23,983 bases of DNA from a virus. The translations under genes were made by a program, and so were the position numbers. This document shows positions 2,152 through 16,062 of this stretch, piece after piece. The notes below the pieces were generated by a model. The model searched no databases. It worked only from the letters and a program-made list of their open reading frames with translations, and had not been told where the DNA came from. Position 1 is the first letter of the stretch. The number at the start of each line of letters is the position of its first letter. The stretch is taken from the IMG/VR virus record IMGVR_UViG_3300044825_002816, positions 1 through 23,983 of that record. The stretch is one strand, 5' to 3'.

Positions 2152-3174
2152 ATGAAAAGGGCACTAATCACCGGAATCACTGGCCAAGATGGTTCTTATC
2201 TGGCGCGTAACCTGATCGATAATGGCTACAAGGTCTGTGGTGTCGTACGCAATCACACGCAACCAAACCATCTTGAGAAACTCAAGTGGGTATTCGGTGG
2301 CAAAATACCTGGTGATGTCTCAGTTGAATATTCAGATTTAACTGATGCACCTTCTTTGACCCGGGTGATCCAGGATTTTGCTCCTGATGAGGTCTACAAT
2401 CTGGCAGCTCAAAGCCATGTCGGTGTCAGCTTTAAATCTCCGGTGAGCACAGCCTCTGCAAATGCATTGGGTGTCATGAATGTTTTGGAGGCATGCCGGG
2501 CTGCCGGTTGTCCTCCCAAGTTTTATCAGGCTTCTACCTCTGAAATGTTCGGCAAGGTACAGTCGTTTCCTCAGAATGAAGAAACTGGCTTTTATCCCAG
2601 AAGTCCTTATGGGGTGGCCAAGCTTTTTGGCTATTGGCTGACCGTTAATTACCGAGAAAGCTACGACCTTTTTGCGTCGAACGGTATCCTTTTTAACCAT
2701 GAGAGCCCCATCAGGGGCGACAATTTTGTTACCAAGAAGATCACCAAGGGTTTGGTGGGGGTCATGCGAGGCAAAATTCCTGTCCTCGAACTAGGAAATT
2801 TGGAGGCAAAACGTGATTGGGGCCACGCAAAAGACTATGTTGAGGCCATGCGTCTGATCTTGCAGCAAGACTCAGCGGATGACTATGTGATTGCAACGGG
2901 TATGCAGCACAGTGTTCGGCAGTTCTGTGAGATTGCAGCTGACTACCTCAACCTAAAACTTGAATGGCGGGGTGAAGGCGTTGATGAAATTGGTTACAGC
3001 AAGACGTTGGATCGTGTCATCATCAAGATCAATCCACAGTTTTATCGTCCAGCAGAAGTCGATACTCTCTTGGGTGATTGCACCAAGGCTTACCGGGAGC
3101 TGAGCTGGGAGCCTCGTATCCTTTTTGAGGATATGGTGAAAGAGATGATCAACTACGATCTGGCAACCGTTTAA
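2152..3174 (+). CDS. gmd: GDP-mannose 4,6-dehydratase
   Basis: Gmd converts GDP-D-mannose to GDP-4-keto-6-deoxy-D-mannose, the branch point for GDP-fucose, rhamnose, perosamine and colitose. The 340-aa product is an extended SDR enzyme: NADP-binding GxxGxxG at 8-14 (GITGQDG), AAQSHVGVSF at 85-94, STSEMFG at 128-134 with the catalytic Thr129 and Glu131, and the YxxxK pair Tyr153/Lys157 in SPYGVAK. NHESPIRGDNFVTKKI at 182-197 and RDWGHAKDYVEAM near 221 are Gmd hallmarks. It is slightly short for the family (about 345-370 aa). The frame is open far upstream over the opposite gene, but translation clearly starts at ATG 2152, where homology begins. It is divergent from the ColD-like gene by only 49 bases, so the two probably share a regulatory region. 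Confidence 0.95.
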   Translation: MKRALITGITGQDGSYLARNLIDNGYKVCGVVRNHTQPNHLEKLKWVFGGKIPGDVSVEYSDLTDAPSLTRVIQDFAPDEVYNLAAQSHVGVSFKSPVSTASANALGVMNVLEACRAAGCPPKFYQASTSEMFGKVQSFPQNEETGFYPRSPYGVAKLFGYWLTVNYRESYDLFASNGILFNHESPIRGDNFVTKKITKGLVGVMRGKIPVLELGNLEAKRDWGHAKDYVEAMRLILQQDSADDYVIATGMQHSVRQFCEIAADYLNLKLEWRGEGVDEIGYSKTLDRVIIKINPQFYRPAEVDTLLGDCTKAYRELSWEPRILFEDMVKEMINYDLATV

Positions 3175-3353
3175 AGATCAACCCTGAGGTAAGGCTCCTG
3201 TTCTTCCAGGAGCTTTGCTTCAAAAGCATCTGCCTCACTGGTAGAGATGTCGTCATATGCAACACCGTTCCTTGAGCGGTGCTCAATTTGCAGGAACGTT
3301 TTTATGTCAATCGAAGGATCACAGTAATAAAAACGGCTAATGTGACAAACCAT
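3171..3353 (-). CDS. Small hypothetical protein (60 aa)
   Basis: I do not recognise this protein. It begins MVCHISRFYYCDPS and ends in an acidic helix-like stretch (TSEADAFEAKLLEEQEPYL). It is convergent with gmd and their 3' ends overlap by 4 bases. A TTG at 3371 would add six residues; I prefer ATG 3353. Its 5' half overlaps, in another frame, the small membrane peptide at 3302-3415, so either the first ~17 codons are wrong or the genes truly overlap. The acidic C-terminal half looks like real coding sequence. Confidence 0.45.
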   Translation of the reverse strand: MVCHISRFYYCDPSIDIKTFLQIEHRSRNGVAYDDISTSEADAFEAKLLEEQEPYLRVDL

Positions 3354-3415
3354 ACTGCGATCAATTCCCAATTCAATTTAAAACAGGTCCATAAAATTTG
3401 AAAGAGGACCGTCAT
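3302..3415 (-). CDS. Small single-span membrane peptide (37 aa)
   Basis: The frame starts at ATG 3415 and stops with TAA at 3302-3304. The product starts MTVLFQILWTCFKLNWEL and continues with an unbroken hydrophobic stretch (LIAVWFVTLAVFITVIL, residues 18-34) long enough to cross a membrane, ending in Arg-Leu-Thr. A GGTGG sequence lies 10 bases before the ATG. It is the second gene after a good leftward promoter and follows another membrane peptide by 38 bases. It overlaps the next small gene in a different frame. Its function is unknown; phage peptides of this kind often act at the host membrane in lysis, lysis inhibition or superinfection exclusion, but nothing here proves that. Confidence 0.45.
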   Translation of the reverse strand: MTVLFQILWTCFKLNWELIAVWFVTLAVFITVILRLT

Positions 3416-3453
3416 GCAGGACCACCAACCCTGTATGAATAGTCCTATTTTTG

Positions 3454-3543
3454 TCAGCGGATCCAATGGGGCACCAGTTCGATCAGTGTTGTGATCAGCA
3501 TAGCTGACAAAATCGAGATCATCAGGTACTTGAATTCTTTCAT
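3454..3543 (-). CDS. Small single-span membrane peptide (29 aa)
   Basis: The frame starts at ATG 3543 and stops with TGA at 3454-3456. The product begins MKEFKYLMISILSAMLITTL and ends IELVPHWIR. Residues 7-24 are hydrophobic and flanked by charged residues, giving one predicted transmembrane helix with positive charges on both sides. It lies directly downstream of a near-consensus sigma70 promoter at 3565-3592, with an expected leader of only about 14 bases. TAAGA before the ATG is a weak ribosome binding site. It is too short for homology calls, but the promoter, the topology and the second membrane peptide after it make chance less likely. Confidence 0.45.
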   Translation of the reverse strand: MKEFKYLMISILSAMLITTLIELVPHWIR

Positions 3544-3564
3544 TCTTAGTTTGTGATCTGCTAA

Positions 3565-3592
3565 ATTATAGGCAATATACAAAACCTGTTAA
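3565..3592 (-). promoter_or_regulatory. Sigma70-like promoter driving the leftward small genes
   Basis: Read leftward, TTAACA (3587-3592) and TATAAT (3565-3570) are separated by 16 bases. That is 5/6 and 6/6 of the bacterial -35 and -10 consensus. Transcription would start near 3557 and reach the 29-aa membrane peptide at 3543. The -35 box ends on the first base of the exonuclease start codon on the other strand, so the two transcription units abut. Confidence 0.55.
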
Positions 3593-4446
3593 TGGTTGCT
3601 AAACTAAATAATGAGGATCCTTGGATTAAAGCCAAGGATGAGCAACCAGAAGTCATGCGGTCGATTAATCGGACCGCAGCCAGGATTACACTTAACGGAA
3701 AACGTCACTATACAACTCCGTTACCAACTGGACCTGCGCCGTCCGTAACTACAATCATTAGTGAAACAGCTTCCGAAGCAAACAAACGGAAGCTTGAAAT
3801 GTGGTCTAAAAATAATCCAGGTGTTAAAGAAGCTGCAGCCGAACGAGGTACGGCAATTCACTATGGAATGGAATGTTACCTCAAAGGAAATAAAACCCCT
3901 GATATCCCGGAAGAATATGCAGATTTTTGGTCGGGTATGCCAAAAATTCTCGATCAGTTCCAGGAAGTTTTATGGGCAGAATCTCCTGTTCTGGACAAAT
4001 TTAATTTTACTATTGGTGCTGATGACGTTGCTCGCGTCTGGGGTTGCGATGACGAAGGTCGTGCTTGGGCTGGCGCTCCTGATATTATTGCTGTTGCCAA
4101 TAACAAACTGACGCTTGCTGACTTGAAAACCAGCGTCAAACCTTACAGTCGCAAGTGGCCCAAGGACCTTGAGAAGGGTTCGCCTGAATGGCGTGATCTC
4201 TTGGGCGGTCACCTCAAATTTAAAAAGACATGCAAACAGCTCGCGGCATACGATATAGCTATTACCCAGACACTGGGAATAAAAGTTCAACAAGCTGCTA
4301 TTCTTGTCTCAACACCCTTGCGAACTCAGGTATTTAAGATCTCCAGGAGATTTCTTGATTCGTTGCATGAAGATTGGTACAAAATTGTAGATGAGTACTA
4401 CAAGCAAATCGAAAACTGCGGGGTATATGATCCAGATCTCATCTAA
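3592..4446 (+). CDS. PD-(D/E)XK exonuclease (RecB/Cas4-like)
   Basis: This 284-aa protein has the motif order of Mg-dependent PD-(D/E)XK exonucleases: ERGTAIHYGMECYL near residues 84-97 (motif I, RGT..H), GAPDIIAVANNKLTLADLKTS near 162-182 (the acidic D and DxK catalytic residues), and QLAAYDIA near 217-224 (QxxxY). Such phage enzymes process DNA ends in recombination or degrade host DNA. It has no helicase domain. The start is the first ATG; no good Shine-Dalgarno site is visible. The last 21 codons (from 4381) are duplicated in diverged form at 4818-4883, beyond the next gene. The present C-terminus was therefore probably brought in with the inserted endonuclease gene. Codon use is A-rich compared with the primase gene downstream. 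Confidence 0.85.
   Translation: MVAKLNNEDPWIKAKDEQPEVMRSINRTAARITLNGKRHYTTPLPTGPAPSVTTIISETASEANKRKLEMWSKNNPGVKEAAAERGTAIHYGMECYLKGNKTPDIPEEYADFWSGMPKILDQFQEVLWAESPVLDKFNFTIGADDVARVWGCDDEGRAWAGAPDIIAVANNKLTLADLKTSVKPYSRKWPKDLEKGSPEWRDLLGGHLKFKKTCKQLAAYDIAITQTLGIKVQQAAILVSTPLRTQVFKISRRFLDSLHEDWYKIVDEYYKQIENCGVYDPDLI
4381..4446 (+). repeat. Exonuclease tail, copy 1 (in use)
   Basis: These 66 bases encode the last 21 residues and stop of the exonuclease (KIVDEYYKQIENC..VYDPDLI). They match 4818-4883 at 46 of 66 bases and 18 of 21 residues, with most differences at third codon positions. This copy, but not the other, contains GGGGTATATG, which gives the following endonuclease gene a start codon and a purine-rich site. 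That suggests this copy belongs to the inserted module. Confidence 0.85.
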
Positions 4447-4831
4447 ACTTTGCATTCGTTGCAACAAAAACAAAGATTTAAACTGCTTTGGATGGTCTGG
4501 TTATGTCAAAAAGAACGGCGTAAAAAGTTTATGTAGTTATTGCAAAACATGCCAAAACGAGCTTCGTGTTCAACGCAAATACGGTGTTGATTACGAAACA
4601 TATAAGAATATGTTGGAAGCTCAGAATGGATGTTGTGCAAATTCTGGGTGCAATTCAGCTGAGCCAGGCGCTCCCGGAAGAACAAGATTCTATATTGATC
4701 ACTGCCATGCAACAAATAAAATACGCGGTTTACTTTGTCACAAATGCAATCTTGCTCTTGGTCATGTTAATGATGACATCAAAAGACTAGAAGGATTAAT
4801 TAAATATTTAAAAGATCAAGATCGTAGCTGA
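4427..4831 (+). CDS. Endonuclease VII-family (HNH) nuclease, probable homing-type insertion
   Basis: The 134-aa product matches the recombination endonuclease VII family. It has a zinc-finger region (CIRC near residue 9 and CKTC near 41), then the His-Me-finger core DHCHATNKIRGLLCHKCNLALGH at about 98-120, with DHCH and CxxCN carrying the catalytic and zinc residues. T4 endonuclease VII resolves branched DNA; many phage relatives behave as free-standing mobile nucleases. I chose ATG 4427, six bases after GGGG began, because the first zinc cysteines then sit near the N-terminus as usual; ATG 4391 would add 12 residues. The start lies inside the exonuclease 3' end and the stop lies inside a second copy of that 3' end, so the gene sits exactly between two exonuclease tails. 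That context favours an inserted mobile gene over a resident junction resolvase. Confidence 0.85.
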   Translation: MIQISSKLCIRCNKNKDLNCFGWSGYVKKNGVKSLCSYCKTCQNELRVQRKYGVDYETYKNMLEAQNGCCANSGCNSAEPGAPGRTRFYIDHCHATNKIRGLLCHKCNLALGHVNDDIKRLEGLIKYLKDQDRS

Positions 4832-4883
4832 ATACTATTCTCAAATAGAGAACTGTAATGTCTACGATCCTGATCTAATTTGA
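4818..4883 (+). pseudogene. Displaced 3' remnant of the exonuclease gene (copy 2)
   Basis: In one frame these bases read KIVAEYYSQIENCNVYDPDLI and stop at TGA 4881-4883. That is 18 of 21 residues identical to the exonuclease C-terminus encoded at 4381-4446. Upstream in this frame a TAA comes within a few codons and there is no start codon, so it cannot be translated as a gene. The substitutions are mostly synonymous, showing that both versions evolved under selection as part of a working exonuclease before being brought together. It is most simply the native tail left behind when the endonuclease VII module inserted. Confidence 0.85.
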
Positions 4884-4884
4884 A

Positions 4885-5361
4885 TTAACGGCCAGTGGTG
4901 CGAGGCTTAATGCCTTTATTGCCAGGCTGGGTTTTCTTTTGCACAGGACGCTGCGCTGCTTTAGGTGTTGCCTTGGGTGTTGCTGCAGCAGCTGGCTTCC
5001 GAGCTGGAACTGCCGAAGGTTTGCCTGCAGAGCCAGTTGTTTGACGTGGAGTCCTGCCTTCTTCCTTAAGTTTAATCCTTTGCTCGTTCAATTTATTCAA
5101 ACGATTTGCAAGAGCTTCTTTATTTAGTTTCTTTTCCGGTGCAGCAGGCCTGTTATTGCTTTGAGCACTGGCAGGCCGGCGTGGGGGAACAGGCTTTTTG
5201 GTTTCCGTAGAACCTTTGGTCCTTTCGCCAATTACTGGTTTTTTAGAACCTGCATCATTCGGCTTGCTAGCACGATTTGGAGTGCCAGGGGCAGGGCGTT
5301 TTGGGCCTCCTGGATTTGGGTAATTGGTGGTATAGCCAGCACCGGGAACTACTAATGACAT
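4885..5361 (-). CDS. Basic Pro/Ala/Lys-rich disordered protein
   Basis: I do not recognise a family. The 158-aa product is strongly basic and low in complexity. Residues 1-75 are rich in Pro, Gly, Lys, Arg and Asn; about 76-105 form a charged helix with coiled-coil character (LNKEALANRLNKLNEQRIKL); the C-terminal 50 residues are Ala/Pro/Lys-rich (PARKPAAAATPKATPKAAQR), like histone H1 tails. It could bind DNA or act as a virion or scaffold accessory, but that is a guess from composition. It is the only minus-strand gene between 3.6 and 13 kb. Its stop lies one base beyond the displaced exonuclease tail. It starts at the first ATG, and 53 bases separate it from the divergent gene at 5415. Confidence 0.6.
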   Translation of the reverse strand: MSLVVPGAGYTTNYPNPGGPKRPAPGTPNRASKPNDAGSKKPVIGERTKGSTETKKPVPPRRPASAQSNNRPAAPEKKLNKEALANRLNKLNEQRIKLKEEGRTPRQTTGSAGKPSAVPARKPAAAATPKATPKAAQRPVQKKTQPGNKGIKPRTTGR

Positions 5362-5414
5362 GGACTTTTAATTTTCTATTGCTATTTTAAAGTAAAGAAA
5401 TCAATTAAATTGAA

Positions 5415-5693
5415 ATGAAAATACTAGCTCTCCTGTTAGATGCCGTAATCAAATGGTGGAAACGTATTTGGTTTGAAGCCAAGCTCAAGGCGCGGCTTGA
5501 TATGATCGAACTGGAAAATAAGATTGAAGCTGAAATTGAACGTGAAGAACAGAACAAACCAATCTATATTGAACATCCTATTGATCCAGAGCTACAGACC
5601 GGTGAGTCTCAAAAACTTGGTGGGGCAATGGAACTGAGAGCACCTTGGTACACTGATGGCCTGGAATCCGAACGGGAAAATGGAAAGCCGTAA
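5415..5693 (+). CDS. Small protein, hydrophobic N-terminus and coiled coil
   Basis: The 92-aa product opens with MKILALLLDAVIKWWKRIWF, an amphipathic or membrane-associated helix, continues with a charged helix (residues 20-47, Glu/Lys-rich, coiled-coil-like), and ends in a polar tail. I do not recognise it. The N-terminal segment could be a membrane anchor, but Lys14, Lys17 and Arg18 make a peripheral amphipathic helix equally likely. It starts a run of plus-strand genes; its end overlaps the next small gene by 14 bases. The AT-rich stretch at 5362-5414 must hold promoters for both this gene and the divergent one, but no clear boxes stand out. Confidence 0.6.
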   Translation: MKILALLLDAVIKWWKRIWFEAKLKARLDMIELENKIEAEIEREEQNKPIYIEHPIDPELQTGESQKLGGAMELRAPWYTDGLESERENGKP

Positions 5694-5832
5694 GCGTTAC
5701 GCTTGGCAAATTGCATGCGAAACAGCAGTAGTGACCAAAGAGGATGCACTGTTGGTTTATGAACGGTTAATGAAACAATTTGAAATGAAAGATAAGGAAC
5801 GGAATAATAATGAGTCCAATAAGACTTGCTGA
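5680..5832 (+). CDS. Small hypothetical protein (50 aa)
   Basis: The frame runs from ATG 5680 to TGA 5832. The product (start MESRKRYAWQIACETAVVTK) has a predicted helix from about residue 18 to 45 and a Lys/Asn-rich end. It overlaps the end of the preceding gene by 14 bases, with CGGGAAA directly before the ATG, which suggests coupled translation. No family is recognised. Confidence 0.5.
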   Translation: MESRKRYAWQIACETAVVTKEDALLVYERLMKQFEMKDKERNNNESNKTC

Positions 5833-5906
5833 TCTACAGGAAATCGTAATAGCCCCTCTGGATTGGTCGCCGTAGGATAAGGAGACACACAAGTCAAGCC
5901 CTCACC

Positions 5907-6092
5907 ATGGACATCAATGTCTGTATGGGTGAGTGGATGAATAGTCTCATGAGTCGCATGGTAAGTGCGGCGGATGGGGACTGTTTTTATCTGCCCACTG
6001 ACATGCATCTTCATGCTTTTTTGCTATTGAAAGAGGCAAGTTTTGCGGATAAAAACTTTAAAGTAGAAGTTCGACCGATGAACCAGGCATGA
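5907..6092 (+). CDS. Small conserved-looking hypothetical protein (61 aa)
   Basis: The product begins MDINVCMGEWMNSLMSRMVS and contains DCFYLPTDMHLHAFLLLKEASF, which looks like a compact folded domain. I do not recognise it. Its TGA overlaps the ATG of the primase gene (ATGA at 6089-6092), the typical sign of coupled genes, so I accept it as real. The start is uncertain: a perfect AAGGAG lies at 5879-5884, 22 bases before ATG 5907, and no ATG, GTG or TTG occurs at normal distance from it. ATG at residue 7 is an alternative. The 74 bases at 5833-5906 hold no other convincing gene. Confidence 0.6.
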   Translation: MDINVCMGEWMNSLMSRMVSAADGDCFYLPTDMHLHAFLLLKEASFADKNFKVEVRPMNQA

Positions 6093-8716
6093 CCAATACC
6101 AACAAACAATCCCTCAAGCCCGGTGAAATCAGGCTCGATTACATCCCAATTGATTGGCCCTTAACTCCTTTAGGTCCAAACAAAGATCCTTACGTTGCTG
6201 GCTGGCAAAACAAACCATTCAGCCCTCAAGAAATTGAAAATGAAATACTGCTTGGTCGTTGCAAGGCTGTCGGTCTTCTTGGTGGTCCTGTCTACAACAA
6301 TCCATATGGCCTGATCTGGGTTGATGTTGACGGTCCAACCGTCTACGCGCTCATCGAATCATTGTCTGAGCTGGCTTTTGATGAGGCGCTGCCAGATACC
6401 CTCACAATTCTTAGCGGTAAAGAGGGACGCGAACGGAAGCTGTATCGCCTTTCTCGCGATAATCACAAGCACATCGTCAGGAATAAATACACCTGGCACG
6501 CAGAAGGCAAGAAAGAAAAGCTTGAGATCCTCTGGAAAAAGCACCAGGGTGTTCTCATGGGTCTACACCCTGAGACAGAGGGGTACTTCACCGCAGAAGA
6601 CCAGGGTTTTGAGTGGATCCAGCAGTTGCCTGAATTCCCGGAATGGTTGCTGAATGCCATCATTCAAAAGAATGTCAAGCAAGGTGTTCCGGCAAAAGAA
6701 ACGACCCGGATCATCGGCCCATCATTTGCCATTAACGCTGAAATCTCCCTCGAACGGGACATGCAGCTGGCACTTGAAGCAATGTGGGGAATGCCGCCAG
6801 AAGCCACAGATGATTACGACATCTGGATCATGGTTGGGCAATCGCTTCATTCACTGGATGAATCACTGCTTGATCACTGGGATGAATGGTCCCGTCAATC
6901 TGAAAAATACCAGGAGGGTGAGTGCCACAGGCGCTGGCTTTCCTTCTCGAAAGGTGGTGGTCGTGGCATCGGATCTCTGGTGCACGTCGCAAAAGAAAAC
7001 GGATGGCAACCATCTGAGAATCACAAATCAATGAATGTGGATGACAACATGCTTGATCACGTAGCAAAACTATTAAGCGAACTAGAAGACGACTTAAATA
7101 TCACCAGCTCCAAGACAACGGAAGAAACTGAGCATTTCGAAATCAAGAGTGGGTGGAAGACGAAGGCTACAAGGGGGCGTTCGGGTAAAGAGCAGAAGAC
7201 TCGTAACCCTTCCTCTGATGTCATCGCTGGAATTTTGTTGCAGGATTACCAGGGCAATCTGCGCTACAGCCAGTCGCATGGCGCCTTTTTCATGTATCAA
7301 TATCAACGAAAGGGCCTGTGGTCACAACTTTCGGACTATGAAGTTAAGGGCGATATCAAGGGAAGGTTGGATGCCATTAAGGAGGGCTTGCTTCACAGCG
7401 GCTACTCCATGAATCTCATCTCCGACTTAATGGAGCAATTGAGGATTTCAACTATTTTTGACGATTGGTATGAAGGTAATGAATACCTATTGTTTACAAA
7501 CGGCATCTTGAATGTTCAAACAAGGGAGCTGATGCCATTCGATCGGGAGCTGCATATCACGCAACAACTTCCGTATGAATACGATCCTTATGCCGGTTGT
7601 GAACCGATCATTAAGTGGTTGAAGTCCACACAAAATGACAGCTGGGGTAGGGTCCAGGTTCTGAGGGCTTGGTTGCGTGCAGTCCTGCTCAGCCATTCGG
7701 ATATTCAGAAGTTTGTTGAGATTGTCGGCCCCGGTAAATCTGGTAAGTCTACCTACAGCAACTTGGCCCATGCCCTGGTTGGTGATGACAACGCCATGAT
7801 CTCCTCCCTGGAACACCTAGAGAAGAACCGATTTGAAACGGCAAACCTATATAAGAAGAAGCTATTGCTCTTCAATGATGTGGAGCGTTACGGCGGCTCG
7901 GTCTCCGTCTTAAAAGCAATCACAGGTCGTGACTTGATTCGTAATGAGCGCAAGTTCCAGGCTGGTAGCCAGAAGCCCTTTAAGTTCAATGGGCTTGTGA
8001 TGATTACAGCCAACGAACCAATCCAGACGACTGATCCGACTTCCGGTTTGGCGCGTCGGCGCCTGACCATCCCATTCGATCGTCCTTTCACTGGAAGTTC
8101 AGCTGAACAACGCACCCTTATTGATATGGATGACCAGGGTCGTCCCTTCGGTGAGTTCGCTGCTTTACTGCCAGGGCTCGTGAATTGGGTGCTGGATATG
8201 ACGGAAGCTGAGATGCGGGAATACCTGATGGAAACAAACGAGAAGGTTGACTTCTTTGCTAAACACCATAAGGAGCAAATCCTTAAGTCCAACCAAATCC
8301 TGGATTGGATGCAGCACTGTGTGGTCTTTGATCCAGGTATTTCGGTGCCCGTTGGTCTTGCTAAGCATGCCGCTGGTGGTGTCTCAAACCTTTACATCAA
8401 TTGGGATAAGTGGCTTTATGCCAGCTACTGTGAATTCTCCCGTGGTTCCAACAGCAACATTCTGGGTCGCAGCCGTTTTGAATCCCTATTGATGGACGTA
8501 TGTGTTCATCAGCTCAAGCTGAACGTCTATCAATTCAAAAACAGCCGTGGCATGAGGGTTGTCAACCTCGCGCTCAGGGCATCTGGTCCTAAATATGAGC
8601 AGTATCCATCCATCGTTGAAGTTGGTTTGAACAAAGAAGAGTGGCGGACCTTCTACGGCGATGTGCTGGATAAGGAATCCGATGCGACAATGGAAGAATT
8701 GGCAAACGAACTGTGA
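6089..8716 (+). CDS. Primase-polymerase / SF3 helicase replication protein
   Basis: This 875-aa protein combines priming and unwinding. Residues ~20-190 look like an archaeo-eukaryotic PrimPol domain (KDPYVAGWQNKPFS, then AVGLLGGPVYN and the acidic WVDVDG with Asp79 and Asp81). Residues ~221-306 match the PriCT-2 primase C-terminal domain (DYDIWIMVGQSLHSLD ... HRRWLSFSKGGGRGIGSLVHVAKENGW). Residues ~460-670 are a D5/P4-type superfamily 3 helicase: LLFTNGILNVQTREL, Walker A GPGKSGKST (547-555), Walker B LLLFND (592-597), motif C MITANE (638-643), and an arginine-finger cluster RRR (656-658). The region 310-375 is a polar linker. It is probably the main replication initiator or fork enzyme of this phage. 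It overlaps the previous gene by ATGA and the next (speD) by GTGA. No frameshift or missing key motif is visible. Confidence 0.9.
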   Translation: MTNTNKQSLKPGEIRLDYIPIDWPLTPLGPNKDPYVAGWQNKPFSPQEIENEILLGRCKAVGLLGGPVYNNPYGLIWVDVDGPTVYALIESLSELAFDEALPDTLTILSGKEGRERKLYRLSRDNHKHIVRNKYTWHAEGKKEKLEILWKKHQGVLMGLHPETEGYFTAEDQGFEWIQQLPEFPEWLLNAIIQKNVKQGVPAKETTRIIGPSFAINAEISLERDMQLALEAMWGMPPEATDDYDIWIMVGQSLHSLDESLLDHWDEWSRQSEKYQEGECHRRWLSFSKGGGRGIGSLVHVAKENGWQPSENHKSMNVDDNMLDHVAKLLSELEDDLNITSSKTTEETEHFEIKSGWKTKATRGRSGKEQKTRNPSSDVIAGILLQDYQGNLRYSQSHGAFFMYQYQRKGLWSQLSDYEVKGDIKGRLDAIKEGLLHSGYSMNLISDLMEQLRISTIFDDWYEGNEYLLFTNGILNVQTRELMPFDRELHITQQLPYEYDPYAGCEPIIKWLKSTQNDSWGRVQVLRAWLRAVLLSHSDIQKFVEIVGPGKSGKSTYSNLAHALVGDDNAMISSLEHLEKNRFETANLYKKKLLLFNDVERYGGSVSVLKAITGRDLIRNERKFQAGSQKPFKFNGLVMITANEPIQTTDPTSGLARRRLTIPFDRPFTGSSAEQRTLIDMDDQGRPFGEFAALLPGLVNWVLDMTEAEMREYLMETNEKVDFFAKHHKEQILKSNQILDWMQHCVVFDPGISVPVGLAKHAAGGVSNLYINWDKWLYASYCEFSRGSNSNILGRSRFESLLMDVCVHQLKLNVYQFKNSRGMRVVNLALRASGPKYEQYPSIVEVGLNKEEWRTFYGDVLDKESDATMEELANEL

Positions 8717-9063
8717 GCAACGGGCGGCACCTCATTCTCGATCTCTACAACTGTGATCGAGATCTACTCGATGATTACGAAGAGCTGGAGAGGTTGCTCC
8801 AGGTGGCGCTCAATATGGCAGGCGCTAATATCCTGCGTGTTTTTGGTGAGAAATTTCAGCCGCAAGGTGTCACACTACTTGCCTTGCTGGCTGAATCTCA
8901 CGCATCTATCCACACCTGGCCTGAGCTGGGCTATGCAGCTATTGATCTATATACCTGTGGTGACACAACAAATACCCATAGGGCAGCTGAATTCCTCAAA
9001 ACAAAACTGAAATCAAATCAATCTGAGGAAAAAGAACTGGTACGGTCTATAACTCCTCAATAA
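8713..9063 (+). CDS. speD: S-adenosylmethionine decarboxylase proenzyme
   Basis: SpeD cleaves itself to form a pyruvoyl group and decarboxylates S-adenosylmethionine, supplying aminopropyl groups for spermidine. The 116-aa product is the short bacterial form. The cleavage site is Glu61-Ser62 in LLAESHASIHTWPE; Ser62 becomes the pyruvoyl group. His67 and Cys82 (in YTCGD) follow at the same spacing as Ser63, His68 and Cys83 of the Thermotoga maritima enzyme, so it should be active. The start is GTG 8713, overlapping the TGA of the primase gene (GTGA). speD is a known auxiliary metabolic gene of cyanophages; polyamines could help DNA condensation and packaging, or host growth. No spermidine synthase gene is in the window. 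Confidence 0.93.
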   Translation: MSNGRHLILDLYNCDRDLLDDYEELERLLQVALNMAGANILRVFGEKFQPQGVTLLALLAESHASIHTWPELGYAAIDLYTCGDTTNTHRAAEFLKTKLKSNQSEEKELVRSITPQ

Positions 9064-11038: not shown

Positions 11039-11404
11039 ATGCCAAGCAACCGAAAGGAAATGCCGCCCCTCTGGCGCGTACAGGAACTGATCAAACTGTC
11101 GGACCGTTACCCCAGTGGATTGGAGTGGGTGGTCGACAAGGCTTGTAATAAGGCTGGGACTCAGGCTGGACGCATGAACAAGGTGACCGGCTTCTATATG
11201 GTCTGCATCGACAACACTGTTTACCTGGCGCATCGACTCGTTTACTTCCTGCAAACGGAAGAAGACCCTTTGCACATCGATATCATTCATGAAAAAAATA
11301 ATGTGAATAAAGACAACCGAATGAAGCTGGTGCCGACAAAACGTACGAACAAAAAACCAAGGGCGGTCCCTGAGGAAAAGAAAGTTCCTTCTTATTCCTG
11401 TTAG
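11039..11404 (+). CDS. HNH endonuclease-like protein
   Basis: The 121-aa product has the core pattern of small phage HNH proteins: YLAHRLVYFLQ near residue 62, IDIIHEKNNVNKDNRMKLV near 80-98, then a basic tail (PTKRTNKKPRAVPEEKK). In classical members the middle reads roughly VDHINxNxxDNRxxNL; here Asp-x-x-His and DNR are kept but the following Asn-Leu is altered, so activity is uncertain. Such genes are usually mobile or homing nucleases; some act in packaging. The start is the first ATG of the frame and has no clear ribosome binding site. It is followed after 6 bases by another HNH-type gene, likely the same transcript. Confidence 0.7.
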   Translation: MPSNRKEMPPLWRVQELIKLSDRYPSGLEWVVDKACNKAGTQAGRMNKVTGFYMVCIDNTVYLAHRLVYFLQTEEDPLHIDIIHEKNNVNKDNRMKLVPTKRTNKKPRAVPEEKKVPSYSC

Positions 11405-11410
11405 TAAAAA

Positions 11411-12073
11411 ATGGCAAACATACACCGTTCAGAACGCAAGCTTGCCAAGGCAACGGACTTCCGGTTTGTGGTCGGTATCGATGAGCTATCCGATGAGGAG
11501 CTTGATGACCGTGGCTACTACAGGGGCTTTGTCTGTCCTCATAACCACCACATCCGGGATAAGGAACGGCACTGGTGCTATCACTGCGTCCACAAGATCC
11601 AATCCAACCTCTGTGGATTTGACATCAACTACTTGAATATCGAATACAAGGCCAGGTATCAAAAGTTATGGGCGAAGGTCACCAAGGGGTCGATGGATGA
11701 GTGCTGGCCCATCCAATCCCCTGGTCCCTACACACCCAAGAGAATCTGTATGCCTTCTTATCGATCTGCATACAGCCACCAGAAGGCTGAAAACTTAAGC
11801 TTTCATAAAGCTATTTACAACTGTGCCTGGGGTGACATCGGAAGCATGGTCGTCACTCACCTGTGTGGCAACCCAAGATGTGGCAACCCACTGCACTTGA
11901 TTTCCAGCTGGAATAAATTGTTCTACCCGGAGACCGTCAATCCTTTTGAAGTTGAGTTCAAAGCGGAGAAGCTGATGTCCTACGGCAGGAATAAGGACAA
12001 CCCCCTTGTATTTAACAAGGCATTCAAACAGTCAATTACCTTCCCCGAAAACATAGAAATACCAGAAGAGTAG
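11411..12073 (+). CDS. His-Me-finger (HNH) nuclease-like protein with N-terminal zinc motif
   Basis: The 220-aa product has a possible zinc-binding N-terminal part (CPHNHHIRDKERHWCYHCVHK, about 42-62, read in two halves with Cys and His ligands) and a C-terminal region following the phage HNH plan: a Cys-Trp near residue 98 (DECWPI), FHKAIYNCAWGD near 131-142, VTHLCGNPRCGNPLHL near 147-162, then SSWN. The last two resemble the aHRxaY and HxCxNPxCxNPxHL segments of homing nucleases such as those with a zinc-binding loop. It could be a homing nuclease, or a repurposed DNA-binding protein. It sits between another HNH gene and a probable virion gene. The C-terminal 45 residues are unassigned. Confidence 0.68.
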   Translation: MANIHRSERKLAKATDFRFVVGIDELSDEELDDRGYYRGFVCPHNHHIRDKERHWCYHCVHKIQSNLCGFDINYLNIEYKARYQKLWAKVTKGSMDECWPIQSPGPYTPKRICMPSYRSAYSHQKAENLSFHKAIYNCAWGDIGSMVVTHLCGNPRCGNPLHLISSWNKLFYPETVNPFEVEFKAEKLMSYGRNKDNPLVFNKAFKQSITFPENIEIPEE

Positions 12074-13359: not shown

Positions 13360-14370
13360 TCAGTAGTCCCAGCGAATTCGTTGACGACTTTCTCTGATTC
13401 CAATGTGGACAAATCCTTTTAGTGCACCATATCCTAATGAGTAGCGCCAGTTTTTATTACACCAATCCTGTACGACATAGATATTGGCACCTTTAATGTA
13501 GAAATCAACAGCCCCTTTTGATGGTGCATTGTAAGTGTGCTCGCTGTTCTTGGCGCCACCAACTTGTGTGTTGATGGGTTCGGGTCGAGAGGCACTGGTA
13601 ATAATCAAAGGTTTATTGCCGAATGCACTGCGTACTTTTTCAAGGAACTCACAGATCTCTAATGCTGTATCACACTGATATTGCTTGGTAAAACGGCGTG
13701 CTTCCTGGTTAAGGGTTAACTCACCATACGTAATATTTGGCGTCACTTTAAATGTAAAGGGGCTCCAGGGATTGAAACCTGTTTTCTTATCTGGTTCTTT
13801 TGCTTGTTCAATGTTTCCTGGTGTTCCAAGCTGACGATCCATGATCTGGATTAGCTTGGTACTGTAATCAGGATCTGTAGCGTATTTTTCAACAACTAAA
13901 AGTTGAGCGCACTCATTACGTGTCTTGGCACGGTTGACACCTTTAAAACGACCAAAGTCTTTGTACCACCGATCTACTAGATAGAAAACACAAGTCTCAA
14001 GATCTGGAAAATCAATAAAACTATCGGTAATTGTGATCCATTTACCGTTGATAAACTCCTGGGTGCTGACAGCACTACCAGATCCCTTCAGACCAAATGC
14101 GTTGAAGGTGCCAGAGAAATGCTTGCCCCATCCTGATTCGAGTGCCCACTGAGCAGCGACACATTCAGGGAATTTTGCCCCGGCTTTTTTGGCAGCAGCG
14201 TACACACCGTCCCAGCTGTTTTCAATTTCTTGCTTTGTTTCCTTTCGATAACGCTTGGCAAATTCAGCCAAGGTTTCAGTCGATGTTGATTTCTGCAGCC
14301 ATTCCCAAGCTTCTTTCTGATGAGGTAATTCCTCATAAAACTTTGCAGCATCCGTAAGTTTTATCGTCAT
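13360..14370 (-). CDS. Two-domain endolysin: glucosaminidase plus M15-type peptidase
   Basis: The 336-aa product carries two peptidoglycan-cutting domains. Residues ~50-185 match the FlgJ-type glucosaminidase family, with catalytic Glu78 in VAAQWALESGWGKH, then AFGLKG (91-96) and YATDPDYSTKL (163-173). Residues ~218-325 match zinc D,D-carboxypeptidase-type M15 proteins: SASRPEPINTQVGGAKNSEH with His278, KGAVDF with Asp289, and GFVHIGIR with His322 as metal ligands. One domain would cut glycan strands and the other the peptide stems. It has no signal peptide or membrane anchor, so it needs a holin, or it acts in the virion during entry. I chose ATG 14370 over the preceding TTG. A small gene follows one base after its stop. 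A free-lysis endolysin is the simplest reading; a tail-associated lysin is possible given the nearby fibre genes. Confidence 0.9.
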   Translation of the reverse strand: MTIKLTDAAKFYEELPHQKEAWEWLQKSTSTETLAEFAKRYRKETKQEIENSWDGVYAAAKKAGAKFPECVAAQWALESGWGKHFSGTFNAFGLKGSGSAVSTQEFINGKWITITDSFIDFPDLETCVFYLVDRWYKDFGRFKGVNRAKTRNECAQLLVVEKYATDPDYSTKLIQIMDRQLGTPGNIEQAKEPDKKTGFNPWSPFTFKVTPNITYGELTLNQEARRFTKQYQCDTALEICEFLEKVRSAFGNKPLIITSASRPEPINTQVGGAKNSEHTYNAPSKGAVDFYIKGANIYVVQDWCNKNWRYSLGYGALKGFVHIGIRESRQRIRWDY

Positions 14371-14397
14371 CAATTTAGAGCTATTAAATAAACTCTA

Positions 14398-14409
14398 AAA
14401 CACGTGTTT
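14398..14409. other. 12-bp perfect palindrome before the endolysin gene
   Basis: AAACACGTGTTT is perfectly self-complementary, centred on CACGTG, and lies 28 bases upstream of the endolysin ATG (14370) in the 53-base gap. Two TATAAAT sequences follow on the plus strand. It could be an operator or half of a terminator for the upstream gene; there is no direct evidence for either. Confidence 0.3.
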
Positions 14410-14423
14410 ATAAATGTTATAAA

Positions 14424-14603
14424 TTAATTTTTTTCTTCCGTGAATTCTTCGTTTACTTTTGTTTCTTCTGGCGAAAAGTCTAGCGTTTCAATTAATTCAA
14501 CAATTAAATCACCGGCGTATTTAATTAGATTAAAATCTCCAGAGGCCCTGGCTGCCCCAAAAGAATTAATCGCAGAAATCAACTCAGATTTTTTGCAAGC
14601 CAT
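14424..14603 (-). CDS. Small helical protein (59 aa)
   Basis: The frame runs from ATG 14603 to TAA 14424. The product begins MACKKSELISAINSFGAARA and continues as helices (FNLIKYAGDLIVELIETLDF) to an acidic tail (SPEETKVNEEFTEEKN). I recall very similar short proteins in cyanophage genomes near tail or lysis genes, without a known function; this is memory, not a search result. A TGTTATACT extended -10-like sequence stands 22 bases upstream. It lies between the fibre cluster and the endolysin on the same strand. Confidence 0.65.
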   Translation of the reverse strand: MACKKSELISAINSFGAARASGDFNLIKYAGDLIVELIETLDFSPEETKVNEEFTEEKN

Positions 14604-14624
14604 ATTGAAGCAATAATTTCAAAC

Positions 14625-14633
14625 AGTATAACA
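14625..14633 (-). promoter_or_regulatory. Extended -10 promoter-like site before the 59-aa gene
   Basis: Read leftward the bases are TGTTATACT, an extended -10 element (TGnTATACT). The matching -35 region is poor. It would start a transcript about 15 bases before the ATG at 14603 and could drive the small gene and the endolysin. Confidence 0.35.
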
Positions 14634-14703
14634 AAAATCACCATCCTAAAACAGCGAATACTGAATATTTTTTAGTATATCAATAATGATTAGTGAGTAG
14701 GAC

Positions 14704-16062
14704 TTAGATGCCTGCCGCAGTTAAACGACCCTCCAGATCTTCAATCTTCTGAAGTGCTTCCTGCAACGCAGCCGTCAGCAACGGAACAAGCTTGGATTGG
14801 TCAATGCCTTGGTAAACGGGGTTACCTTCGTCATCAACTTCGTCCTTCGTGCCGGTGACGCACTCGGGGACGACTTCTTGCGCTTCGTGGGCAAGGAAAC
14901 CATCGACGGTCTTACTGGGATCAGCAATGAAGTTGAAGCGGTGAACCTGGAGTTGATTAACCCTATCTGTAGCGCCAGTTAGCGGGACAACGTTTTCTTT
15001 TAGGCGATAGTCAGATGAAGTGTTGTAGGAAGTAGATGACCCATTCATTTGAATAGAACCTACAACTCCGTTGCCATTCTGAAAAATGGCGCAGTTTTTT
15101 AAGCTTGTCAGTGCTGATTTGATTTTATAAACTGGCGCGTATATGCTGTCTGCCACAAAACCGCAAGCTTCCGTACCAACAAGATCCGCACCTGTGGCTT
15201 GCGGTGAGCAACTTACCGCTCCGCCATTGGTAATTCTGAGCGCCTCAGTTGGTGATGACTGGCCATCGCGTGTAACGGAGAACACTAGTCTCGACGGATA
15301 GTCATTTGTTCCAGTTGCTCCGTCGGCTTCACAACCTATGACTGCATAGTTAGAACCTACGTTGTCTCCAAAGATTATGTATCCCATTGCAGCGCCTGCT
15401 GTAAGACCGCTACTGGAGGTGTCCCTTTGAATTAAAATAATTCCTGGTTGACCACTAGAAAAACTATTGCCTTGGAATACAGCTCTTGCCGAGCCAGTGC
15501 TCGAAGACGTGCCAACTAACAACCTGCCGGAGCTGTCGATGCGGGCGCGCTCAGTGCTTCCTACGGAAAAGTTTATTGAGTTAGTAGTAGTACCAAACGT
15601 TTTAAGATCTAGTGTTTGGTTTTGATCGTAAGTCTGGATTGATCCGCCAGATGCTGTTGTAGCAATATCAATACCTTGTGTCCCATTACTAAAACTTCCA
15701 ACGTTGACGCTACCCGTCCCGCGTACATCTAGAGGTTTGCCCGGGCTAGTAGTGCCCAGACCTACCCTGTTATTCGTGGCATCAATGTAGAGCGTATTGC
15801 TGTCGATGTTTACATTACCGCTCGCATCAATCAGCAGTCGCTGAGAGGAGTTGGTCGAGATGGCTACGTTATTTGAGGAGGGTAGATAAAGTCCGTTTGT
15901 TGGAACAGAACTTCCGGTTGGAATAAAGCTGGCGCCACTTACTGTACCGCTTGCAGAAATATTATTAAAACTACCGCCAACGAGACCGCTTACAGACGTA
16001 CTGGCATCCAATCCACCAGACGTGTAAACAAGGGTATCTAATTTTATAATCCCGTATGGCAT
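14704..16062 (-). CDS. Tail fibre with C-terminal S74 self-cleaving chaperone
   Basis: The 452-aa product begins with the anchor-like region shared with two other fibre genes here (MPYGIIKLDTLVYTSGG). The middle is Ser/Gly/Thr-rich beta-repeat sequence with bacteriophage-fibre style motifs (NNRVGLGTTSPGKPLDVRG near 97-115). The last 103 residues form an intramolecular chaperone of peptidase family S74: SDYRLKENV starts at Ser350, with Lys355 five residues on, the same spacing as the Ser911/Lys916 dyad of phage K1F endosialidase. In that family the chaperone assembles the trimer and then cuts itself off before the Ser. The end (ALQKIEDLEGRL) is a short coiled coil. It is the last gene of the fibre cluster and is probably a host-recognition fibre. 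Confidence 0.88.
   Translation of the reverse strand: MPYGIIKLDTLVYTSGGLDASTSVSGLVGGSFNNISASGTVSGASFIPTGSSVPTNGLYLPSSNNVAISTNSSQRLLIDASGNVNIDSNTLYIDATNNRVGLGTTSPGKPLDVRGTGSVNVGSFSNGTQGIDIATTASGGSIQTYDQNQTLDLKTFGTTTNSINFSVGSTERARIDSSGRLLVGTSSSTGSARAVFQGNSFSSGQPGIILIQRDTSSSGLTAGAAMGYIIFGDNVGSNYAVIGCEADGATGTNDYPSRLVFSVTRDGQSSPTEALRITNGGAVSCSPQATGADLVGTEACGFVADSIYAPVYKIKSALTSLKNCAIFQNGNGVVGSIQMNGSSTSYNTSSDYRLKENVVPLTGATDRVNQLQVHRFNFIADPSKTVDGFLAHEAQEVVPECVTGTKDEVDDEGNPVYQGIDQSKLVPLLTAALQEALQKIEDLEGRLTAAGI

Follow-up and report, generated by a model that had tools for sequence, protein, structure and literature searches.

An endonuclease VII-type gene between two versions of an exonuclease 3′ end: a likely free-standing homing cassette in a virus genome

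Introduction

This report concerns NucA, an endonuclease VII-type nuclease gene at the 3′ end of an exonuclease gene in the IMG/VR virus record IMGVR_UViG_3300044825_002816. The stretch analysed, referred to below as the window, comprises positions 1 to 23,983 of that record (23,983 nucleotides, one strand). In it, NucA is bracketed by two versions of the last 21 codons and stop of the exonuclease gene, of which the first (copy 1) closes the exonuclease reading frame and the second (copy 2) lies stranded behind the nuclease. Loci of related viruses are designated by numbers prefixed with L.

Anatomy of the exonuclease locus

The features of the locus are as follows:

3592 to 4446, plus strand: exonuclease gene (284 amino acids, PHROG 298); reading frame intact, closing in copy 1
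4213 to 4215, plus strand: codon 208 (CTC, Leu), candidate altered target site, a function suggested by its association with carriers
4256 to 4446 (start approximate), plus strand: exonuclease 3′ stretch unlike the native lineage, the putative carried replacement end, delimited by sliding comparison and a table of sites
4381 to 4446, plus strand: copy 1 (21 codons and stop), the tail in use by the exonuclease; codon 277 (4420–4422) is Gly
4427 to 4831, plus strand: NucA, endonuclease VII-type, 134 amino acids (PF02945); start in copy 1, stop in copy 2
4815 to 4823 (approximate), plus strand: 3′ junction, where the nuclease coding sequence enters the native tail and meets an out-of-frame stop
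4818 to 4883, plus strand: copy 2, the apparent native exonuclease tail, stranded outside the intact exonuclease; 89% identical to L003, 88% to L011 and 70% to copy 1
4885 to 5361, minus strand: small proline/lysine-rich gene 3′ of the native tail, from the list of open reading frames (ORFs); no match in Pfam or PHROG

The recurrence of the exonuclease tail after the nuclease gene, first pointed out in an initial annotation made from the sequence alone, was reproduced: the copies agree in 46 of 66 bases and in 18 of 21 residues plus the stop. Beyond their edges, only scattered bases match in the preceding 20 codons, and the codon after the stop is ACT in one case and ATT in the other. Over all six frames of the window the runner-up for a 21-residue match reaches only 7/21, which excludes a chance origin of the repeat. 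The ORF coordinates of NucA (ATG at 4427–4429, TGA at 4829–4831) confirm that it starts within copy 1 and stops within copy 2, and it overlaps the exonuclease by 20 nt. The 3′ junction is placed by two homologous loci, L066 and L126, which diverge from the window beyond 4815–4823. A further IMG/VR contig has the same arrangement and differs at 1 of 8,443 aligned bases, and the more diverged L002 (about 81% DNA identity to the window) shares both the gene order and the 3′ junction; an assembly artefact is therefore unlikely.

Two familiar kinds of mobile element were considered for the locus and rejected. A group I intron is ruled out by the intact exonuclease frame together with the Rfam search, which gave no RNA family match up to E = 1 in the window and one tRNA only in eight related loci. 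An intein is ruled out because NucA does not share the exonuclease frame and the two genes have only those 20 nt in common.

NucA as an enzyme

NucA matches PF02945 (Endonuclease_7) with E = 4e-21 over residues 45–128 of 133. Numbered without the start Met, D90, H91, H93, R99 and N107 and the cysteine pairs C69/C74 and C103/C106 are invariant among eight homologues, so that the catalytic D-H-x-H, R and N and the two Cys pairs characteristic of the F-CphI-type (DHHRN) family are all present. The motif lies in the C-terminal half of the protein, a position reported as a mark of F-CphI-type homing enzymes, whereas most resolvases have it in the N-terminal part; F-CphI of cyanophage S-PM2 is the characterised homing member of the family (PMC6083498). 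In this respect NucA fits the F-CphI type and is unlike T4 endonuclease VII, a resolvase with an N-terminal motif. NucA is also free-standing and optional, being present at the exonuclease end in some relatives and absent there from most. A structure prediction for NucA had a mean pLDDT of 61 and was set aside, no use being made of it.

Distribution of nucleases and second tails among relatives

A scan of IMG/VR gave 207 stretches with relatives of the exonuclease, of which the best 80 were taken; the table used here holds 92 exonuclease loci including the window. Counts of distinct loci leave out L001 (the window virus again), L115 (tail identical to L113), L038 (identical to L035) and identical tails; from the comparison of 61 relatives used below, incomplete exonuclease genes were left out as well. 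'Without nuclease' refers throughout to the exonuclease end, within the sequence examined, as L003 and L061 have an endonuclease VII elsewhere in their flanks.

An endonuclease VII gene stands at the exonuclease end in 15 of the 92 loci: 11 (9 distinct) have NucA, and four have a second nuclease, NucB, about 35% identical to NucA and located at or just past the exonuclease stop codon. Among distinct loci, 12 of 75 have one or the other. NucA starts 20 nt before the exonuclease end in all nine distinct carriers, and an alignment search with NucA found ten IMG/VR contigs at 67–100% identity, every one with the gene over an exonuclease 3′ end. That one gene end harbours two nucleases of only distant similarity suggests a preferred target. 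Second tails were counted from 11 of 21 residues upwards, which leaves out shorter remnants like the one in L083; they occur in 4/15 carrier loci and in 0/77 others (3/12 and 0/63 among distinct loci, p = 0.003). Two tails without a nuclease, which the initial annotation had set against its own proposal, were thus found at none of 77 loci.

The nearest named relative of the exonuclease, at 65.5% identity, is that of Synechococcus phage S-EIV1, which has no nuclease at the exonuclease end, and from this relationship the host of the virus is probably picocyanobacterial. Named phages gave 22 records with a protein match, of which only S-EIV1 exceeded 60% identity, and a distant DNA search of window positions 3000–6000 against named phages returned no match.

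Origins of the two tails

In the window, copy 2 is 0.894 identical to L003 and 0.879 to L011, both without nuclease here, and only 0.697 to copy 1; the top match of copy 1 is 0.833 and comes from other lineages. The second tails of L002 and L008, the latter a NucB carrier, reach top identities of 0.894 and 0.873. Identity between the two copies is 69.7% in the window, 71.2% in L002 and 68.8% in L008.

The two copies also differ in how they follow the rest of the genome. Across relatives (n = 61), identity of the upstream exonuclease correlates by rank with identity of copy 2 (0.39 in the window, p = 2e-3; 0.50 in L008, p = 3e-5), and not significantly with that of copy 1 (0.02 and 0.17). Identity of the downstream primase (n = 32) gives correlations of 0.52 (window) and 0.65 (L008) for copy 2 against −0.10 and −0.23 for copy 1. 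Among the ten nearest relatives by primase, of the 32 comparable, copy 2 is the better match in nine for the window, nine for L008 and eight for L002. Over all 61 relatives without nuclease, copy 2 is better in 46 for L008 (copy 1 in 14, one tie) and in 43 for L002 (copy 1 in 14, four ties).

For the window itself, the expectation of the initial annotation that relatives lacking the nuclease would be closer to copy 2 held for those sharing the backbone (9/10 by primase) and failed over all 61 (27 nearer copy 2, 32 nearer copy 1), a split which limits the validity of this test to same-backbone relatives. Taken together, these comparisons support copy 2 as native-like and copy 1 as being of different origin.

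Insertion points in individual carriers

Sliding comparison with the native group places the change of lineage well upstream of copy 1. The mean identity of the window exonuclease is 0.84 at nt 570–665 of the gene and then falls to 0.72 and 0.69, so that the non-native stretch extends from about nt 665, some 190 bp before the stop codon. The relic starts only at nt 790, from which it follows that about 120 bp of the native gene were lost.

L008 is the clearest case of insertion. The native-group mean of its exonuclease is 0.88 at nt 570–665 and 0.69 and 0.71 thereafter. The second tail of L008, which begins near nt 667, has 189 bases of native-like sequence (0.873 identity to L003). As both junctions fall at about nt 665–667, the native gene was apparently interrupted at approximately one point, with no clear net loss, and the insert appears to consist of a non-native tail and a nuclease. 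A short and weaker case is L083, in which the final four or five codons of the exonuclease appear to be joined in frame to the nuclease. The idea of a mobile unit made of tail and nuclease is thus supported, although the unit is larger than the 66 bp at first envisaged: the tail part measures about 190 bp, and changes linked to carriers reach as far as codon 208.

Sequence marks shared by carriers

Gly277, the glycine of copy 1, is present in 9/9 distinct NucA carriers and in 16/63 tails without nuclease (p = 2e-5). A stronger association lies 70 codons further 5′: nt 622, in codon 208, is the top carrier-associated position of 855 sites (p = 2e-6), and the association still holds after correction for all 855. 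Leu208 occurs in 9/9 distinct NucA carriers and in 11/63 loci without nuclease, the remainder having Met (51) or Ile (1), and the two residues occur jointly in 9/9 and 6/63 (p = 6e-8). L002 retains Leu208 even though the sequence 3′ of codon 208 is native-like again. The change at codon 208 is possibly a mark of immunity near the target.

The initial annotation had taken the start codon of NucA as a mark of the inserted tail, with the glycine as its by-product. The first idea is weak: the start codon is kept in 9/9 carriers, but 38/63 distinct tails without nuclease also have ATG at this position, and it was probably available before insertion. The glycine is indeed associated with NucA, but its status as a by-product amounts to that association, with Gly also in the 16 tails mentioned above.

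Duplicated gene ends beyond the exonuclease

A flank screen compared the peptides encoded on either side of a gene for similarity, with correction for composition and with control ORFs from the same loci. It replaced a first, uncorrected screen that had given GC-rich matches of low complexity (L236, L197, L154, L089 and L155 among them). Duplicated neighbour ends were found at 12/83 endonuclease VII ORFs and at 2/389 control ORFs (p = 3e-8); the 12 include three exonuclease cases and one doubtful case (L236), and 6/83 remain (p = 5e-4) if every host-gene family on the nuclease side is reduced to a single count. An enlarged screen gave 43/162 against 3/590, a figure inflated by three nuclease families that were included because duplication had already been seen in them, so the first comparison is the fairer one.

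Other phage contigs do have endonuclease VII genes of the kind that the initial annotation had suggested seeking, flanked by two forms of the end of an adjacent gene, and 5′ ends are involved as well. The genes concerned are a small gene of unknown function (with the nuclease nucC), the large terminase subunit (nucD), a helicase (nucE) and a virion structural protein. These cases are mirror images of the exonuclease locus: the last part of the nuclease gene and the beginning of a replacement 5′ end overlap, and a truncated version of that 5′ end lies upstream. With nucD (L161–L163 and L281–L289), the endonuclease VII gene precedes that of the large terminase; the stranded start, M[AS]DLNFSLLPWQQ, is found upstream and the replacement downstream. 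In five loci, relic and replacement share 19–26 of 33 bases over an 11-residue peptide selected as identical.

In L101 (2300–4003) and L094 (2000–3700), nucE is flanked by duplicated helicase N-termini, LRDYQQRTIDQLYAWF and LREYQSRALDMLYAWF. In L233 (3402–4232) and L234 (199–1303), a stranded virion structural 5′ end is fused in frame to endonuclease VII, the 3′ end of which overlaps the replacement start of the same virion structural gene. L238 has at 5377–5925 a second endonuclease VII on its contig, with a 15-residue peptide (GECDDYFW) repeated at both ends.

An empty site and a candidate translational bypass with nucC

The nucC cassette lies in the small gene in most of L237–L276, including the contigs of L002 (L262), L035 (L245) and L066 (L237). 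An empty site is provided by comparison of L034 with L246, in which 772 bases replace 10 and the flanks on either side, of 1,651 and 439 columns, align at 91.6%. The stranded 5′ end of L246 is identical to L034 over 90 bases, and its replacement is at most 0.67 identical to any uninterrupted allele. Pattern matching located a relic in 23/32 carriers, with a weaker contrast between relic and replacement than in L246: the median best identity to uninterrupted alleles is 0.73 for the relic (including two mis-registered relics at 0.30 and 0.37), 0.67 for the replacement and 0.81 for the 3′ part.

In the 32 distinct nucC carriers, the last codon of the replacement 5′ end is TCG, and TAG comes immediately after it. 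The 3′ part resumes after 20–30 bases at a Ser codon (TCG in 30/32, TCT in 2/32), in all three relative frames (22, 6 and 4 loci), with 49–63 open codons beyond. The loci were kept on the grounds that the replacement end closes in EWS; an unfiltered search gave the same 32 and four more, which belong to other nuclease families and are without such a site. TCG is found in 0/29 uninterrupted alleles, which have other Ser codons instead.

A UAGCC-tetraloop-GGCUA fold is present in 31/32 gaps. It is similar to the take-off stem of T4 gene 60 (L396, 2803–2852), in which GGA is followed by UAGCC-UUCG-GGCUA, although UAG is fixed in the nucC gap and hence only the CC/GG pairs of the stem are free agreement with T4. 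Cases of translational bypass named in a review are T4 gene 60, a yeast mitochondrion and a Streptomyces phage candidate (PMC5009743). We propose the small gene linked to nucC, at loci outside the window, as a candidate for translational bypass of the T4 gene 60 kind.

Proposed mechanism and alternative explanations

We think it likely that a free-standing homing cassette, composed of a foreign exonuclease 3′ end and an F-CphI-like nuclease of endonuclease VII type, entered the exonuclease gene at its 3′ end. Starting from the anatomy of the locus, the different origins of its two tails, the association of second tails with a nuclease and the recurrence of the arrangement with other nucleases and host genes, we infer cleavage at a particular site, repair driven by the break, movement of the cassette and immunity of the carried allele. 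NucA would cut exonuclease alleles without the nuclease, near their 3′ end, and repair would copy the cassette from a carrier phage, as break-driven homing with homology on one side only. On the 5′ side, joining would rely on homology within the exonuclease; on the 3′ side, the cassette would be attached to the broken native end almost or entirely without homology. The carried tail would restore the interrupted frame, leaving the native tail 3′ of the nuclease as a relic. The incoming allele is altered at positions such as codon 208, by virtue of which it presumably escapes cutting. Codon 208 and the points at which copy 2 begins are candidates for the target.

Several observations weigh against this proposal. 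A long relic is present only in the window and L002 among the nine distinct NucA carriers, L083 having perhaps four or five codons, and at the threshold of 11/21 no second tail was found in the other six or in two of the three distinct NucB carriers. L002 is a mosaic in which later recombination or conversion obscures the history: it is native-like again at nt 665–760, a 24-base stretch is identical in both of its copies, and a correlation with the backbone is seen for copy 1 too (0.40). Among the 61 relatives without nuclease, copy 1 of the window is the better match in 32 and copy 2 in 27, with two ties. No close donor of copy 1 was found, its best match among non-carriers being 0.83 (window), and for the non-native stretch of the window at nt 665–760 the best match is only 0.81. 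L003, the nearest to copy 2, itself has another endonuclease VII about 1.6 kb downstream. Gene content 3′ of the exonuclease also varies in loci without nuclease, and illegitimate joining therefore occurs there without one. The association of Leu208 and Gly277 with carriers may reflect shared descent of the carried DNA and not immunity. Finally, 20 endonuclease VII regions of named phages, a non-random choice whose usability was not checked individually, gave no match in the flank screen.

Ordinary mosaicism is the alternative to be taken most seriously, although we regard it as unlikely. On this account, a crossover within the exonuclease and an unrelated illegitimate joining downstream would have produced the locus, with the nuclease as a passenger. 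The exonuclease genes are indeed mosaics, with several switches in L002, and the highly variable gene content after the exonuclease in loci without nuclease would be expected. A passenger nuclease fits poorly with the confinement of second tails to carriers (4/15 against 0/77), with the greater frequency of duplicated gene ends at endonuclease VII ORFs than at controls (12/83 against 2/389), and with the two junctions of L008, which meet at about the same position of the native gene.

The shared Pfam family of NucA and T4 endonuclease VII raises the question of whether the nuclease is simply a phage Holliday-junction resolvase with a fixed housekeeping role at the exonuclease end. This seems improbable for a gene that is optional (NucA or NucB in 12/75 distinct loci), that is represented at the same spot by two members only 35% identical, and whose product has the motif in its C-terminal half, the position known from F-CphI-type homing enzymes (PMC6083498).

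Little credence can be given to the idea that the exonuclease tail was duplicated locally in tandem, that the nuclease later landed between the copies and that these then diverged. Copy 2 has higher identity with other phages (up to 0.89) than with copy 1 (0.70), L008 behaves likewise (0.87 against 0.69 over 189 bases) and two tails occur in 0/77 loci without nuclease; the identical 24-base stretch in both copies of L002 is the one feature that such a duplication would explain. Equally hard to credit is the reverse assignment, with copy 1 native and copy 2 arriving with the nuclease, to which the 32/61 nuclease-less tails nearer to copy 1 (in the window alone) would lend themselves: relatives sharing the window primase fit copy 2 (9/10), all nine distinct NucA carriers share the copy 1-type Gly277 and start codon, and six of the nine are without a second tail at the threshold used, which makes copy 2 an unlikely part of the travelling unit.

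As to generality, we incline, by a little, to the broader view that free-standing endonuclease VII-family nucleases form recurrent intron- and intein-free phage homing cassettes that replace 3′ or 5′ gene ends, one lineage adding a short T4 gene 60-like bypass element, by which the rebuilt protein would be translated across the 20–30 base gap. This view covers the 3′ end of the exonuclease, with its two distantly similar nucleases, and the 5′ ends of the large terminase, helicase, virion protein and small unknown genes.

Relation to known systems

Free-standing homing nucleases must spare the gene that they invade, and introns, inteins and intergenic landing are the familiar answers to this problem. 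If the proposal is true, a carried gene end is a further answer, so far described in fungal mitochondria. The nuclease could then target conserved coding sequence, repair the gene end and present a changed target at once. Gene ends would move between phages, and the resulting chimeric genes would confuse phylogeny and annotation.

The closest parallel is provided by the mobile endonuclease ORFs with carried gene ends in the mitochondrial atp6 of Allomyces and the atp6, atp9, cox2 and nad3 of Glomus (PMC3630166). As at the NucA locus, the nuclease lies between two versions of a 3′ end, with the inserted end in frame and the native end stranded. In the fungi, native ends are 91–98% and inserted ends 64–81% identical to a close relative; the corresponding values here are similar, at 89% for the native end and 70% for copy 1 against copy 2. 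The fungal systems are mitochondrial and use LAGLIDADG or GIY-YIG enzymes, whereas the present one is a phage system with an endonuclease VII whose start codon lies within the carried tail, and the mirror-image 5′ versions at other phage loci are a further difference. The strategy that the initial annotation described as free of introns and inteins does involve neither here, but it was already known from fungal mitochondria. In our analysis, the phage case follows the logic of the fungal mobile ORFs, in another enzyme family and another replicon, with 5′ versions in addition.

Among phage systems, F-CphI shares with NucA the catalytic motif in the C-terminal half and is likewise a small free-standing cyanophage nuclease beside a conserved gene, but it cooperates with a group I intron in psbA, whereas the NucA cassette carries a gene end instead (PMC6083498). 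The Seg and Mob nucleases of T4 resemble NucA in being optional, in lying between conserved genes, in overlapping starts and in the co-conversion of flanks. They are transferred via flanking homology or split their host gene (mobE in nrdA, mobA in the topoisomerase gene), and the accessible part of the source mentions no replacement end that is carried along while the native one is left stranded (PMC2988022). Islands of homing endonuclease genes share with the NucA locus the position of nuclease genes at boundaries of phage exchange; they are large nuclease-bracketed regions, and the available part of the source describes no gene-end duplication (PMC10448857). Nor is such duplication described in the available parts of the literature on HNH nucleases of Xanthomonas phages and Skunavirus. 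No example of a phage nuclease with a replacement gene end was found in the literature searched, which largely excluded subscription journals and was available in part.

Other features of the window

The interval between exonuclease and primase (4447–6089) is hypervariable in the window and its relatives: minus-strand genes, a gene with a WWK motif, a CRKRLAW gene and nucleases vary, and the interval is variable also in loci without nuclease at the exonuclease end. Directly 3′ of the primase lies an S-adenosylmethionine decarboxylase gene (8713–9063, PHROG 3125), as in S-EIV1. Two neighbouring ORFs at 11039–12073 have His/Cys patterns that look HNH-like by eye, with no Pfam match at E ≤ 0.001. 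On the minus strand, positions 13360–16062 hold ORFs with glucosaminidase and M15 peptidase domains, probably a lysin, together with a tail-fibre-like protein with a Peptidase_S74 chaperone domain.

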